A stretch of 31,528 bases of DNA from a virus: positions 1-31,528 of the IMG/VR virus record IMGVR_UViG_3300025120_011683. One strand, written 5' to 3'. Of this stretch, positions 9,537 to 25,340 are shown piece by piece. Under the pieces are notes generated by a model that had not been told where the DNA came from, did not search any database, and saw only the letters and a list, made by a program, of their open reading frames with translations. A program made the translations under genes and the position numbers. Every line of letters begins with the position of its first letter. Positions within the stretch are counted from its first letter, which is position 1.

Positions 9537-10595
9537 TTAACGGGATTGTCTATTTACATAGGTTGAAAATTTTCTTGTAGCATTATTGCTGTTACTTATT
9601 ATATCATTGCGTTCAAGCTGTAAATCAAGTGAGCCTTTTCCTATCTCCTCCTCAAAGGTTGCCTTCTGATGTTGTCCATCCATACGCAAGAAATCGGCAT
9701 ATGAGTTATGTGCTATAAAACTAAAGAACTCTTCTGGTACAGCTTCTGTGGATGCAGTAAAATCGCTTGATGTAGTAAATGGAGTAAATGTTTTCTTATA
9801 TGTTACAAATACTGAATTATCAGCAGTATTACCAATATTTAAAATATGAGCACCATCTAGATCAACATAAAAATCGTATTCTAGTGATGAATCATTTACT
9901 AATGCTAACTTCCTATGCACTCTTAAAAATTCACCTATAGTATTTTTTTGTATTACATTAAAAAATAATTTTTCATTAAATGGTATAAAGTTGTCTAGTG
10001 GTGTAATTACAAAATTACCTTCTACTGGGGCATTTAAACTATTATCTGAAAATGATACTAAATGTGCATATGGAAGCTCTTTTGTAGAATCGGTTATACT
10101 ATCGACTCCCACCACATCGATACTTTGATATAAATTAGCACCAGTAGTTGATAACCCCACCAAATTGGTAGATGGATTTGTAGTGCTACCTCCGACTGCG
10201 TTACCTTTTTTTAAAACAAAATCTCCATTATATGTTGTTGTATCTTTAAATAGTACATATGCAAAACTAACATCAGAAGCTATAAAATCTATAGTCGAAT
10301 ATACTGGAGAATCTCCAAACATTCCTACCCATAAAAAATCCTTTGTAATACTAGATGCTTTAGGAGCGGTTGCATCTCCACTTGGATTAAATGTAATTGT
10401 ATATTTTTTAGGTTGAAGATATCTCAACTCAGATGGGACTAAATATCTAACCCAATTTTGTGATTCATTATATGCTTGAAGATATCTTCGATTTATAAAT
10501 CGTGATATATCTGATTGTTCATCAGATGTAAATTGGTTAACCCCAGCTAAGGACTTAATTAAATTAAATAAATCTGCATATGTCCTGTTTTGCAT
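9537..10595 (-). CDS. Head-tail adaptor / tail accessory protein
   Basis: The 352-aa protein begins with a helical part, MQNRTYADLFNLIKSLAGVN, and FINRRYLQAYNESQNWVRYL (near 34-53). This N-terminal signature is typical of podovirus adaptor proteins that dock beneath the portal. A beta-rich middle (TITFNPSGDAT, LEYDFYVDLDGAHI) and a helical end with SYADFLRMDGQHQKATFEEE follow. It lies between the capsid genes and the tail nozzle gene, which is the expected place. Its start shares one base with the stop of the upstream gene. The call is from pattern and order; no catalytic motif is expected. Confidence 0.55.
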   Translation of the reverse strand: MQNRTYADLFNLIKSLAGVNQFTSDEQSDISRFINRRYLQAYNESQNWVRYLVPSELRYLQPKKYTITFNPSGDATAPKASSITKDFLWVGMFGDSPVYSTIDFIASDVSFAYVLFKDTTTYNGDFVLKKGNAVGGSTTNPSTNLVGLSTTGANLYQSIDVVGVDSITDSTKELPYAHLVSFSDNSLNAPVEGNFVITPLDNFIPFNEKLFFNVIQKNTIGEFLRVHRKLALVNDSSLEYDFYVDLDGAHILNIGNTADNSVFVTYKKTFTPFTTSSDFTASTEAVPEEFFSFIAHNSYADFLRMDGQHQKATFEEEIGKGSLDLQLERNDIISNSNNATRKFSTYVNRQSR

Positions 10596-19807: not shown

Positions 19808-19845
19808 AGGCAAGGCAATCAGGCGAGGCAACCTAGGCAAGGCAA
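19808..19845. repeat. Three iteron-like copies of AGGCRAGGCAA
   Basis: Copies start at 19808, 19821 and 19835 (spacing 13 and 14 bp). The middle one has G instead of A at the fifth base. They directly follow a 59-base A+T block. They are G+C-rich against a strong A+T background, which argues for selection. Confidence 0.55.
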
Positions 19846-19855
19846 TGGTATCAAA

Positions 19856-19886
19856 AAAAGCCTCTAAGGATGTCTCAGAGGCTTTT
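19856..19886 (-). terminator. Terminator of the AAA+/VWA operon
   Basis: AAAAGCCTCT (19856-19865) and AGAGGCTTTT (19877-19886) form a perfect 10-bp stem with an 11-base loop; on the minus strand the hairpin is followed by a run of seven T. It lies 23 bases beyond the stop of the VWA gene. Confidence 0.85.
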
Positions 19887-19908
19887 AAATGATATTATGA
19901 TAACTTAC

Positions 19909-21477
19909 TCAGGCTTTCTTCATGGAATACTCCAAAAGCCTTTTGGCTAAACTTATGGGAGATGTATCAATAAACGATTTGGTAAAATACTGATCGCAAT
20001 ATCTTCGAATTTTTGAAACTTGAGATTTTTCACATATGCATGAAGCAATAAGATTAATTCCTCTCCTCCGATATGATTCTTCATTAGGAATATTTCCTGT
20101 GAGATATCCATCAGTAAAAAGTAAAACTAAATCCTGCGGTTTTAAATCAGAATCATATTTCTTTAGATTATTGTCGAAGTTTTCATGATTACCGCATGGC
20201 TCTAATTCCATTAATTTAGATATGCTATGATTTGTGATATCATAATTATATGCATTGTAAGAAATGATCATTTTAAGATCTATTATATTTCTTTCATTCA
20301 ATAATTTTAATGCTCCTAGAAATTCCTTTCCTCCTAAATGAAGAAATGTATTTCTCATTGATCCGCTAAAATCTACAAAGCAAATCATTTTCAATTTACT
20401 GCCTGTTTTTCTATAGGATCTAAAAGCGTTTTCTAGACGCGTTATAGCATTTTTAATATAAAGCCTAGAGCCACTTGTCGAAATCGCATTTCTGACTGAA
20501 TAAGCCTTCTTACATATCGGTCTAAGCGAGCTAAAGATTCTATTAGTTAATGATCTTTCACCTTCAGTTATTCCAAAGCCTCTATTATCAATATTATCAT
20601 AATCAATATTGGAAGTGATTCCCTTATCTGAATTAACATTTCCAATTTTTGAACCTGCCTTCTTTTTCTTATCTTCATTTCCATGAATCTTATTTTGTCC
20701 TTCATAATGATTTGGAATTTCAGACCCGAAAGTAGATATCCATCTCTTAATAATATCCGCCTTAACAAAAATATTATCCGCTTCACAGTATTCACGATAA
20801 TATTTTATAATTGCTAATCTAGAATTTATTTCAGACGGGCGTTGAATACTATTCATAAAAATCACCTTTTCCTTTAGACCCGAATTGAATTTAAGCTTAG
20901 GCAAGAATCGAGTTAGGTTGCCTGATTTGGAATTAGTCATGCGATACATGGCTTCTTTCAACTTAAGAGTATAAAGAGCCTCTGAAGCATTGTCAGACTC
21001 TTCGGGGATATCCATATATCTATGCCAAAAGAATTTTCCAAACTGCGGAAAATCATTAACGATTTTATATTCAATATTACAATCTTCGAAAAGATTAAAT
21101 AAACTAAATGGAATATTAAATTTCTTTAATTCTCCTATTAGCTTTTCTGAATCTCTTTCAGTATAAAGAGCATGTCCTAATTCATGCCTATAAACTTCTT
21201 TCAGAAAATTGGTAGTTAAAGATAATGAATTTTTAGTTTTAACATTTACATATGAATGAATTTTTTCAGTCGAAGTTATGTAGTGTTTTTTGTCATTCAT
21301 ATCATATCTCCAATTGAAAGAGTCGTCTGACGAATCATGCTTAAAAATAACTTTTTCGCTATTAATGTTAGATGAATTTGTTAGTAGAAATCTTGCTATT
21401 CCTGATAACTTTTTATTCCTATAAAAGATTCTTTTATGAGCATTTCTAATGCATTGATATATGTCTGAAATTTTCAT
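19909..21477 (-). CDS. Metallopeptidase-like plus VWA domain protein, partner of MoxR-type ATPase
   Basis: The 522-aa protein has two recognisable parts. The first carries HELGH at residues 98-102, preceded by the helix TTNFLKEVYR, and a downstream NLFEDCNIEY (128-137), whose acidic residues could supply the third ligand of a zinc peptidase. The second is a VWA domain: MICFVDFSGSM with D369, S371 and S373 of the MIDAS metal site, and LLFTDG with D456. A polar Asn/Lys-rich linker (about 255-300) joins them. DUF2201 and CobT-like proteins pair a putative metallopeptidase with a VWA domain next to a MoxR or CobS ATPase, exactly as here. Whether the peptidase is active is unknown. It starts one base from the ATPase stop, so the two are one operon closed by a strong terminator. 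Confidence 0.7.
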   Translation of the reverse strand: MKISDIYQCIRNAHKRIFYRNKKLSGIARFLLTNSSNINSEKVIFKHDSSDDSFNWRYDMNDKKHYITSTEKIHSYVNVKTKNSLSLTTNFLKEVYRHELGHALYTERDSEKLIGELKKFNIPFSLFNLFEDCNIEYKIVNDFPQFGKFFWHRYMDIPEESDNASEALYTLKLKEAMYRMTNSKSGNLTRFLPKLKFNSGLKEKVIFMNSIQRPSEINSRLAIIKYYREYCEADNIFVKADIIKRWISTFGSEIPNHYEGQNKIHGNEDKKKKAGSKIGNVNSDKGITSNIDYDNIDNRGFGITEGERSLTNRIFSSLRPICKKAYSVRNAISTSGSRLYIKNAITRLENAFRSYRKTGSKLKMICFVDFSGSMRNTFLHLGGKEFLGALKLLNERNIIDLKMIISYNAYNYDITNHSISKLMELEPCGNHENFDNNLKKYDSDLKPQDLVLLFTDGYLTGNIPNEESYRRRGINLIASCICEKSQVSKIRRYCDQYFTKSFIDTSPISLAKRLLEYSMKKA

Positions 21478-21478
21478 A

Positions 21479-22816
21479 TTAAACTCCTCCTTTCACATCA
21501 AAATGATGTTCAGTTATTTTGCCGATTGTATCGGCTAATTCCTTAACTGAATCTTCTAAAGTATCACCCGAATCAGGATTCCACACTGTGCAATCGTCGA
21601 TTGAATGGAATACTAGATTATTCCATAATTCCTTAAATGTATTATCGCTTAAGCTTTCTACGCTGGCTTTCAGATTTCTGAAATCAATCGGATATTGCAA
21701 TGCTCCTTTTAAAACTAAATCTCTAGATTTTTCCATCAATTCGGCAAATGCATTTAAGAAATTTATTGATGTAAATTTATCAATATCATTAATTTCATAT
21801 GAATCTAAAATTGATCGACAAGTTGCCTTCGCAAATCCTTTTGTGAAGTTGAATCTTATCTTTCTGAATCGACTCCAAAAAGCTTGGATTGGTAATTCTG
21901 AAGTAAGATTTGCACCCGATATGATATGCAAATTTTTTGCATTTGCTTCAATCACTTCTAGGCTTCCATTTTCATTTTTTCGCGTAGTTAATCTATACCA
22001 TTTTTCTTTAACTCCGTTAACTTCTTTTTCAAATCCATTTAGGAAAGTTAAAAGAAATGCCTGAGTGTTTTCATTCCATCTTAGAATTTCATCTAAGAAT
22101 AATAATACTGATTTATTATTAGATGCGGATCTCATGGCTTGAGATAATATCCCGTCGACATTAACAAATCCTGTTCCGCTAGAATCGGGAATAATATTTC
22201 CTAACAATGTGGTAATTTCGTCAATATCACTTGAACAATTATGCTCTAGGAATTTATCATAAGTAGATCCTAGGATTCTAATTGAATGAGATTTTCCAAA
22301 TGAAGGAGGAGATAATAACATGATATTTGTATTCGCTTCGCAATTTGGAGAATAGTATTTTGTTACTGCCTCTAGCATCCGATTATCACCTGATATTTTT
22401 GCCTGAATAACTTTTATATTTTTTTGAATAGTAGGAGTATTTAATGCTTTAACAATTTCATTAACTTCAGATCCTAAATCTTTAGTATATGTTTTTTGCT
22501 CATTAATCTGTTCCTGAATATCACTTATTTTATTTAGGATTTTTGATTCATCAATATTTGGATTATTTTGATTTCCTAATGCTTTAGTCAAATCCGCTAA
22601 GGCTTTTTCTACTGAATTGGTTTCAGTAGGCTTAGGCTTAGCATTTAGATTTCTCTTATTATCCGCTTCAATAATAATTGAATCGCAATCATTGGAGTTA
22701 AGAGAATTTGTATCGGATGAAGTGATATCGGTGATATCTCCGTCTTTTATGTATTCTCTGATTAATTGTCTTTTTTCGACAACTGACATTATATCTAATT
22801 CGGTATTTGTATTCAT
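21479..22816 (-). CDS. MoxR/CobS-like AAA+ ATPase
   Basis: The 445-aa protein has a disordered, coiled N-terminal part (1-145, with LNKISDIQEQINEQKTYTKD) and an AAA+ core. Walker A is SPPSFGKS (169-176), Walker B LLFLDE (238-243), sensor 1 SGAN (300-303), and FWSRFRKI (313-320) holds the arginine-finger region. MoxR-family ATPases act with VWA proteins as chaperones that insert cofactors or remodel complexes; CobS/CobT cobaltochelatase is one case, and CobS-like genes are common in marine T4-like phages. A cobalt role is not supported here because no cobalamin genes are visible. An AGGAGGAG site precedes the downstream VWA gene, so both proteins should be made in quantity. Confidence 0.75.
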   Translation of the reverse strand: MNTNTELDIMSVVEKRQLIREYIKDGDITDITSSDTNSLNSNDCDSIIIEADNKRNLNAKPKPTETNSVEKALADLTKALGNQNNPNIDESKILNKISDIQEQINEQKTYTKDLGSEVNEIVKALNTPTIQKNIKVIQAKISGDNRMLEAVTKYYSPNCEANTNIMLLSPPSFGKSHSIRILGSTYDKFLEHNCSSDIDEITTLLGNIIPDSSGTGFVNVDGILSQAMRSASNNKSVLLFLDEILRWNENTQAFLLTFLNGFEKEVNGVKEKWYRLTTRKNENGSLEVIEANAKNLHIISGANLTSELPIQAFWSRFRKIRFNFTKGFAKATCRSILDSYEINDIDKFTSINFLNAFAELMEKSRDLVLKGALQYPIDFRNLKASVESLSDNTFKELWNNLVFHSIDDCTVWNPDSGDTLEDSVKELADTIGKITEHHFDVKGGV

Positions 22817-22915
22817 AATTTTTAATTTTGGATTAATATTAAGATTCTATTGAATCGCTTTGATAAAAAATACATTTGAGCAAATCTTTCAAGATTTAAA
22901 TTTTTTTCTAGAAGC

Positions 22916-22942
22916 ATGATATTTCGGTGATATAAATATCAT
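22916..22942. promoter_or_regulatory. Operator candidate with three TGATAT half-sites
   Basis: ATGATATTT (22916-22924) and AAATATCAT (22934-22942) are perfect inverted 9-mers with a 9-base spacer. The spacer adds another TGATAT, so half-sites occur at 22917, 22928 and (inverted) 22936. The inner pair gives TGATATAAATATCA, almost the palindrome of 19011-19024. It lies 100 bases before the AAA+ ATG. Confidence 0.45.
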
Positions 22943-22987
22943 AATGGCAATTTGAAAAAAAGCTTGCATTTTTTTTTAAAAAAAAAT

Positions 22988-23024
22988 AAAATATCTACAT
23001 CCCCTATAAGGATGAAGATATTTT
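22988..23024 (-). terminator. Leftward terminator inside the divergent region
   Basis: AAAATATCTACATC (22988-23001) pairs with GATGAAGATATTTT (23011-23024) with one mismatch. On the minus strand the hairpin is followed by TTTTATTTTTTTTT. No leftward gene lies just before it, so it would stop antisense RNA from the early side and insulate the MoxR/VWA operon. Confidence 0.6.
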
Positions 23025-23039
23025 AAAAAATAACTCATA

Positions 23040-23088
23040 CGGCAGTTCAACTCAAAATTTTCACGGCGGTTCAACTCAAAATTTTTCA
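23040..23088. repeat. Two tandem copies of a 24-25-bp repeat upstream of the early operon
   Basis: Copy one (23040-23063) and copy two (23064-23088) share CGGCRGTTCAACTCAAAATT; the second has one extra T. They end 36 bases before the first early ATG and abut a TTGACA, a place typical of activator or repressor sites. Confidence 0.65.
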
Positions 23089-23089
23089 T

Positions 23090-23095
23090 TTGACA
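23090..23095 (+). promoter_or_regulatory. Candidate -35 element of the early operon
   Basis: TTGACA here directly follows the tandem repeats. The best downstream A+T hexamer, TAATCA at 23111-23116, gives a 15-base spacer, shorter than usual, and leaves almost no leader before the ATG at 23125. The match may be accidental. Confidence 0.25.
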
Positions 23096-23124
23096 TAAAT
23101 GGAATATCAATAATCATCAAGGAA

Positions 23125-23502
23125 ATGTCCAAATATTTTTTCAGAAAGGAAGTAGCATCCGTCTTTGGTGTCAACGAGGCGATTGTATTAGAGATGATAC
23201 ACTTTAGGATCACTAAGTCGAATCATGTTGCAAATGGTCGCAAGTGGTGGTACGGATCTGTACGACATATCACATCTCATTTTCCATTTTTTTCGGAGAA
23301 GCAGGTATGGCGTATCATGAATAGTCTTGAGAAGCAGGGAGCATTGATTGTATCTAACTACAATAAAAAGAAGTATGATAGAACAAAGTGGTATTCAGTT
23401 ACAGAAAAAGCCTTATCCCATTTGGTAAAACCAATACCCTATGTAAATAATAATAATAATAATAATAAAGAATTTAAAATACCTACATACAAACCATTAT
23501 AA
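23125..23502 (+). CDS. Winged-helix replication protein candidate
   Basis: The 125-aa protein is a winged helix: AIVLEMIHFRI (19-29), WWYGSVRHITSHFPFFSEKQ (41-60) as helix-turn-helix, and VWRIMNSLEKQGALIVSNYN with a basic wing. The C-terminal 20 residues hold seven Asn (an AAT run). This plan resembles the N-terminal domain of phage O/DnaD-type initiators, and it is the first early gene with DnaB in the same operon. It lacks the usual C-terminal domain that binds helicase. It could equally be a regulator. The AAGGAA directly touches the ATG, closer than normal spacing. Confidence 0.55.
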   Translation: MSKYFFRKEVASVFGVNEAIVLEMIHFRITKSNHVANGRKWWYGSVRHITSHFPFFSEKQVWRIMNSLEKQGALIVSNYNKKKYDRTKWYSVTEKALSHLVKPIPYVNNNNNNNKEFKIPTYKPL

Positions 23503-24569: not shown

Positions 24570-24834
24570 CCATAAAAATTGGAGAGTATATTTACTTGAG
24601 CGAGAGGGCGAACGAGAATATGTATCCGACAATATAATTGTTAGCTTCCAAGAAAAAGTGACCGAGGCAATGGCATTGTCTAGTGCTATGTTGCATTTTG
24701 ATACTCCTCTAGTGCTAAATGGCACAGATAATCCTGATGGCGATCCTGAGCTTAGTGTAATGCCAATATCAAGAGAGACTGATATGAAAGTATTAAAAAG
24801 ATATTTTTACATTTTTGTAATGAAAAAAAAATGA
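24562..24834 (+). CDS. Hypothetical protein, 90 aa
   Basis: The protein starts MSNHKNWRVYLLEREGEREY; a beta N-terminus is followed by a helix VTEAMALSSAMLHFDTPLV, a pattern seen in small phage proteins of unknown role. It ends MKKK, where a run of nine A is followed by TGA that overlaps the ATG of the next gene (ATGA). Confidence 0.55.
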   Translation: MSNHKNWRVYLLEREGEREYVSDNIIVSFQEKVTEAMALSSAMLHFDTPLVLNGTDNPDGDPELSVMPISRETDMKVLKRYFYIFVMKKK

Positions 24835-25340
24835 ATATATTTTGTATAGATAAAGATCCGATTCAATCGGCAAAGTGGCTATGCGATCAGCATTGCAATA
24901 AGATGGTATTAGAATCAGCACAGATGGTTGCTAATTGTTTTCCAACAGAGGCATTGGAAGATGCTCCTAAGACACAAAATGGAACAACTAGAAAATATTC
25001 TTATTGGAAACATCCTTGCTCAATTTGGGCTAGGGAAACTATGGGCAATCTATCTTGGCTTTTACTTCATTCCTTAGAGATGGAAGAAGAGCGTAAAGAT
25101 AGAGGATATAATCCACACTTTTCAGCCGACTTTCTCAAGTGGGCTTTACACAATATGGTTAGATCTAGTAATGATTCTAGTCCTGAACAAACTGATTTCG
25201 CTATCGCAATAGCAGATGATAAATATTGCAGAAAATTATCTTACTTTGATGAATTAGATGCAATAGGCAAATACAGGCTTTACTACAAGTACGATAAACC
25301 TTTCGCTACTTGGAAACAAAACAAACCCAAATGGATATAA
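24831..25340 (+). CDS. Conserved phage protein, CDxHxxKMxLESAQM family
   Basis: The 169-aa protein starts MNIFCIDKDPIQSAKWLCDQ then HCNKMVLESAQMVANC, and later has YWKHPCSIWARETMGNLSWL. Both patterns recur in a family that is widespread in phages. Some databases attach a pyrimidine-dimer glycosylase name to such proteins, but I cannot support that from the sequence. Many conserved His, Cys, Trp and Asp suggest an enzyme. Translation is coupled to the preceding gene. Confidence 0.6.
   Translation: MNIFCIDKDPIQSAKWLCDQHCNKMVLESAQMVANCFPTEALEDAPKTQNGTTRKYSYWKHPCSIWARETMGNLSWLLLHSLEMEEERKDRGYNPHFSADFLKWALHNMVRSSNDSSPEQTDFAIAIADDKYCRKLSYFDELDAIGKYRLYYKYDKPFATWKQNKPKWI

Follow-up and report, generated by a model that had tools for sequence, protein, structure and literature searches.

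A divergent phage pair of a MoxR/CbbQ-type AAA+ ATPase and a metallopeptidase-VWA protein, a putative protein-remodelling metalloprotease

The DNA analyzed here (hereafter, the window) is a 31.5-kb viral record from a small marine phage, in which genes for a terminase, a major head protein, a DnaB helicase, Erf and endonuclease VII were recognized. Between a rightward replication block (from position 23125) and a leftward terminase block (from 18805) lie two leftward genes, separated by 1 nt, which encode an AAA+ ATPase and a partner protein with an N-terminal metallopeptidase-like domain and a VWA domain (Table 1). An earlier note, made from the sequence alone, had described this two-gene leftward unit, and the unit and every motif named for it were found in the sequence at the residues listed below. 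The same note had credited the pair with its own terminator and with operator-like sites. The terminator was borne out, as a hairpin directly 3′ of the pair had an energy of −21.9 kcal/mol (z, −6.8) and none of 200 shuffles was as good. The operator-like sites stood only in part: two 23-nt repeats do exist, but the ATPase gene is approximately 220 nt away from them and the divergent replication gene approximately 40 nt, and sigma-70-like sites occurred at chance level (23 found versus 25.4 expected). Short direct repeats with the core CGGCAGT were conserved at this place in the window and at 9698–9751 of the related contig L002, directly upstream of the replication initiator gene, and possibly represent an operator or an origin element. 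At the position equivalent to the intergenic hairpin of the window, L002 and L003 have a hairpin of another sequence. Just beyond the terminator of the pair, at 19808–19846, several AGGCAAGGCAAT-like repeats adjoin a very AT-rich tract.

Table 1. Features of the ATPase–partner locus in the window
Feature	Position	Strand	Basis or remark
MoxR/CbbQ-type AAA+ ATPase, P0002	21479..22816	-	445 aa; motifs and NorQ/CbbQ profile match
Metallopeptidase-VWA partner, P0001	19909..21477	-	522 aa; motifs, VWA fold, phrog_459 homology
Intrinsic terminator of the pair	~19855..19889	-	Hairpin with T-run
Intergenic region, pair versus divergent replication genes	22817..23124		Promoter-like sites no more frequent than by chance
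Two 23-nt direct repeats (ACGGCRGTTCAACTCAAAATTTT)	23039..23085		Nearer replication gene; related repeats in L002, L003
Hairpin with A/T runs at flanks	22987..23025		Between divergent genes

The ATPase contains Walker A (SPPSFGKS, residues 169–176), Walker B (LLFLDE, ending at 243) and sensor 1 (SGAN, ending at N303) motifs. G174, K175, D242, E243, N303, R316 and R380 were invariant in 14 relatives, and the roles of Arg316 and Arg380 (arginine finger and sensor 2) were assigned by position. Profile comparison with the PDB retrieved NorQ (E 7e-6) and CbbQ (E 3e-5), and the Pfam AAA_5 model scored just under the cut-off for the window ATPase and over it for the relatives. Judged by its sequence, the protein is an AAA+ ATPase of the MoxR/CbbQ–NorQ class. 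JetA and VapE were discarded as identities because the matches were weak and confined to P-loop or coiled-coil regions. An AAA-ATPase of Microbacterium phage Cece was likewise set aside as a different gene, since it has rIIA/rIIB-like neighbors and no adjacent VWA partner.

The partner carries the motifs HELGH (98–102), EDCNIE (131–136), DFSGS (369–373) and FTDG (454–457). Among 13 phage partners, the invariant positions were H98, E99, H102, the FxLxNLFEDxxIE segment, F149, W151 and a few hydrophobic residues, together with the MIDAS set D369, S371, S373, M374, T455 and D456. Adding bacterial partners (approximately 20% identity) left essentially only HExxH, NLFEDxxE, MIDAS and a few aromatic or aliphatic positions; in the resulting alignment of 14 phage and bacterial relatives (approximately 20–40% identity), the residues invariant from phages to bacteria were H98, E99, H102, N128-L129-F130-E131-D132, E136, D369, S371, S373, T455 and D456. 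A zincin-type motif set is therefore present, consisting of HExxH and a conserved acidic residue (Glu131 or Glu136) that could serve as the third metal ligand, and its conservation argues for a functional peptidase site. The N-terminal part of the partner was homologous to the phrog_459 peptidase (profile match, E 4e-5), and hhalign aligned the N-terminal domain alone with a probability of 96.5–97.8%. The window partner fell into no Pfam family, although the partner profile weakly matched Midasin; Cadherin_3 and Lipoprotein_20 were rejected as sub-cut-off Pfam hits that were inconsistent among members. DUF2201 and CobT, two of the families named in the earlier note, did not hold up, as neither the CobT models (PF06213 and PF11775) nor the DUF2201 putative metallopeptidase model (PF13203) matched in the window in searches in which the positive controls, including Caulobacter CobT, did match.

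An AlphaFold model of the partner built from a 13-sequence alignment had a mean pLDDT of 78 and superseded an unusable model built from three sequences (pLDDT 41). The MIDAS fold on which the note had staked its reading is predicted in this model, in addition to the DxSxS...T...D motif. In structural comparison, the VWA half came closest to Rea1-MIDAS (Z 16.8) and to NorD from the NorQD complex (Z 15.9), both VWA partners known for this class of ATPase, and ordinary VWA domains scored lower (Z up to 13.7); the alignments with Rea1-MIDAS and NorD begin ahead of the VWA core. The structural matches span residues 312–522 only. The N-terminal region is modelled as strands (42–69) followed by the HExxH helix (85–105), and no solved structure corresponding to the peptidase half was among the matches listed, an absence that should not be read as a sign of a new fold. 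Foldseek comparison with viral VWFA proteins gave a match (E 7e-11) that spanned much of the length with a low TM-score.

The first family-specific scans yielded two relatives only, and a scan with the partner alone yielded none; the family opened up when L015 was added to the alignment. When viral contigs were scanned, about twelve others from the window's phage group (L002, L003, L015/L016, L095, L096, L099, L104, L100, L101 and L109–L111) proved to carry the pair, and L018, a contig that ends inside the partner gene, was also counted in this group. The ATPase gene invariably preceded the partner gene and, in contigs that include the flanks, the pair stood upstream of TerS–TerL and pointed away from the replication initiator. 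Random loss of one gene, which the earlier note had taken as counting against its claim, was not seen among the relatives whose sequence covers both flanks, none of which lacks a partner gene. Two relatives at approximately 60% identity kept both genes in the same order, and dN/dS between these two was 0.125 for the partner and 0.078 for the ATPase, indicating purifying selection. By comparison, TerS, repI and exo gave 0.019–0.068, and the gene at 24831–25340 gave 0.164. No positive selection on the pair was found at these values (0.13 and 0.08). Since the order is kept in relatives, dN/dS is low and the motifs are invariant at approximately 20% identity, the pair is more than a chance association. 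Identity to the window across the relatives fell from 89% to 69% for TerL, to 28–30% for the partner and to approximately 40% for the ATPase, indicating that the pair is old in the slot and changes faster than most of its neighbors. The unrelated phages L102, L103 and L105 also carry the pair, in each case near terminase genes.

Phage C75C1 and its metagenomic sisters, in which TerL is approximately 73–76% identical to that of the window, do not have the pair. Their virion proteins are homologous to those of the window (portal, approximately 70%; MCP, 67–68%), and because the portal and head proteins are kept in phages without the pair, it is not generally needed for this virion type. The slot in the sisters is occupied by amidoligase and gamma-glutamyl cyclotransferase genes on the opposite strand (C75C1, L009 20149–22830; L055, L058, L079 and others) or by an ArdC-like gene, methyltransferases or small ORFs. 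On the TerL tree the three slot states required only four changes (12.6 on average after shuffling, and never so few in 200 shuffles), which indicates that the slot content is clade-stable and not randomly exchanged. An ArdC-like antirestriction protein, named by eye, is encoded in the matching accessory slot of L049 (2829–3770).

A genome scan located the pair in Sulfurimonas and other Campylobacterota, Variovorax, Novimethylophilus, Agitococcus and one proteobacterial bin. It is rare in bacteria: 11 of the 228 genomes of one family carried it, as did 2 of 299 in one order and 1 of 399 in another, and these counts take in the seed genomes. When 15 loci were compared, the ATPase and the partner were the only genes common to them, in agreement with the earlier description of a self-contained two-gene unit kept as a pair; a third gene shared by all loci, as the VMAP component of a VMAP ternary conflict system would be, was not seen in this comparison of gene content. 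Pairing is near-constant but not intact throughout, as in bacteria the partner gene is broken into pieces next to an intact ATPase gene in L144 (7291–8780) and the ATPase of L143 is very divergent; the two genes are separated by other ORFs in L116 and L140. No virion genes were recognized in the bacterial pair loci. Phage and bacterial partners formed separate clades (96/95), thereby indicating that these phage copies are no recent pickups from these bacteria. Several of the bacterial copies (L113–L120 and L138–L145) adjoin TIR, caspase-WD40, IetA-like or TraG/TraD-like genes. The conflict-like neighbors as a whole comprised a TraG/TraD-like ATPase with a WYL regulator, TIR, an IetA-like AAA protein, caspase-WD40 and Type IIG restriction, and they are taken only as a lead towards a defence role of the bacterial pair. 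It is likewise genomic context that speaks for defence or counter-defence, one of the roles suggested in the earlier note.

The pairing of an ATPase with a metallopeptidase-VWA protein is already known in phages, and the window branch, with an adjacent AAA+ gene and a vWA gene bearing an N-terminal HExxH domain, is a new divergent variant of it. Records of marine T4-like phages with the phrog_459 "peptidase" number in the hundreds (tblastn matched 463), and in those examined its gene is a direct or near neighbor of CobS, in the stretch from gp46/47 to gp45/44. Marine T4-like phages such as HTVC008M (gp107/gp108), S-PM2 and Syn9 have both parts in this arrangement, and their peptidase has corresponding motifs (HEVGH...NVIEDxRI(E/D) and DWSGS) and an N-terminal domain that can be aligned with that of the window partner. 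They differ from the window in that the peptidase comes first, the genomic place is another one, and the peptidase is approximately 740–785 aa long with a long acidic linker. A search of the literature for transcription-timing data on the homologous cyanophage genes found none. The MoxR and vWA-metallopeptidase pair of jumbo phages, for which Iyer et al. (2021) proposed a role in virion assembly (PMC7824862), has in group 2.2 the same architecture as the window pair, the two being likened by description; it belongs to jumbo phages, whereas the window clade consists of small phages with relatives of approximately 38–39 kb.

Other authors have read such genes as cobalamin genes. Liu et al. regarded the cyanophage peptidase as a CobT that had been annotated in error and suggested a role in producing cobalamin (PMC8651126), and CRP-810-type Roseobacter phages are likewise annotated with cobS/cobT (PMC11288001). 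CobS–CobT resembles the window pair in combining an AAA+ protein with a VWA partner and, in true CobST, in the ATPase-first order, and a phage-plasmid "CobT" is like the window partner in that its motifs (HEVAH and NALEDVFIE) are intact. In true CobT, however, HDARVH replaces HExxH, and the window partner matches neither Pfam CobT nor CobT_C, consistent with the earlier statement that it is not an ordinary cobalamin gene. In the loci compared (L122:2177-4585, L121:2771-4666, L123:2696-4618), the Pfam CobT N-domain was matched both by the phage-plasmid protein with intact HExxH (E 4e-38) and by the degenerate true CobT. CobT and the phage proteins therefore appear to belong to a single superfamily, with loss of the peptidase motif on the cobaltochelatase branch. 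CobT may thus have descended from a metallopeptidase-VWA protein, and the published "CobT" and "metallopeptidase" readings may be reconcilable in this way. The link to true CobT holds only via this phage-plasmid protein with its Pfam CobT match; when the zincin alignment was compared directly with true CobT, the profile match was not significant (probability, 1.8%).

Among solved structures, NorQ–NorD and Rea1/Midasin come nearest to the VWA half, and by sequence NorQ/CbbQ is nearest to the ATPase. The known targets are cNOR for NorQ–NorD and pre-60S ribosomes for Rea1/Midasin, and neither system is known to have an HExxH domain. In NorQD, a VWA finger docks in the ATPase pore and force is exerted on the linker of the partner, a mechanism whose generality is presumed by the authors (PMC13036017). 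Motifs, profiles and relatives agree with the earlier assignment of the window pair as a MoxR/CbbQ-type AAA+ ATPase with a metallopeptidase-VWA protein. For this pair, with its recognizable domains, three strictly conserved active sites, near-constant pairing and purifying selection, we postulate that it probably acts as an ATP-driven, MIDAS-guided protein-remodelling metalloprotease on a host or competitor target. By analogy with the systems above, the ATPase would assemble into a MoxR-type ring, on which the VWA domain of the partner and the segment preceding it would dock as NorD does on NorQ; the MIDAS metal site would grip the target, ATP hydrolysis would move the partner and strain or unfold the target, and the N-terminal HExxH domain would cut it. 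This mechanism is favored because of the invariant active sites, the Rea1-MIDAS/NorD and NorQ/CbbQ matches and the gene adjacency in relatives, and as a candidate mechanism it is well supported at the residue level. The target would more likely be a host or competitor complex around the replication phase than a virion protein, considering that virion-homologous sisters do not have the pair, that bacterial loci contain no recognized virion genes, and that T4-like and phage-plasmid pairs are placed among replication genes. The co-orientation of the pair with the terminase and late genes in the window clade counts against a non-virion target, since it is compatible with virion work.

The function of "peptidase + CobS" is disputed in print, between a vitamin B12 enzyme and a chaperone-protease for virion assembly. 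In the latter role, which we regard as unlikely here, the pair would remodel and trim structural proteins of the phage. Such a role has been put forward for jumbo phages, and an analogy is offered by Acidianus two-tailed virus, in which a MoxR-VWA pair builds the tail; ORF892 of this virus was among the weaker matches to the partner model in a virus-structure library. The pair adjoins TerS–TerL in the same orientation in the window clade and adjoins terminase genes in L102, L103 and L105; in these three phages, however, it is divergent from the terminase, and the sister phages retain clearly homologous head and packaging genes without it. The distant branch keeps the protease and MIDAS residues as almost its sole invariant positions, and this invariance, the small size of the phages and the bacterial homologues in loci without recognized virion genes weigh against the B12 reading and somewhat against the virion reading. 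A CobST-like cobaltochelatase motor that borrows host CobN and raises cobalamin output is very improbable for the window pair: the reading has been published for viral CobST, the AAA+/VWA logic is the same and phage-plasmid homologues strongly match Pfam CobT and CobT_C, but the window partner matches neither model although the Caulobacter control does, HExxH is invariant in the window family where true CobT has HDARVH, and no B12-linked gene was recognized among the window genes searched.

We think it unlikely, too, that the HExxH site binds metal or substrate without cutting, so that the pair would only remodel complexes in the manner of NorQD or RavA–ViaA. The HExxH domain can lose catalysis, as exemplified by DQEVAKY in an Acinetobacter plasmid homologue and by HDARVH in true CobT, which tells against the protease reading, and the MoxR-VWA pairs studied so far function without a peptidase domain (PMC13036017). 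Glu99 and the histidines are nevertheless invariant in all 14 aligned members, and metal binding alone would not require Glu99. It is less likely still that the pair is a stand-alone conflict module, serving as patchy immunity in bacteria and as a phage weapon against host defences or rival phages, in which the ATP-driven, MIDAS-guided protease would destroy a key complex of the invader or host; the phage slot would then be one also used for other accessory cargo in sister phages. With regard to the metalloprotease that we favor, the compact two-gene system makes the disputed function testable by single residues (E99, D369 and K175). In the unverified record of Pseudoalteromonas phage XG4 (L011 3884–6126), a VWA ORF, a separate metallopeptidase ORF and a CobS-like ORF follow one another, and this splitting of the domains could be due to gene fission or to a sequencing error.
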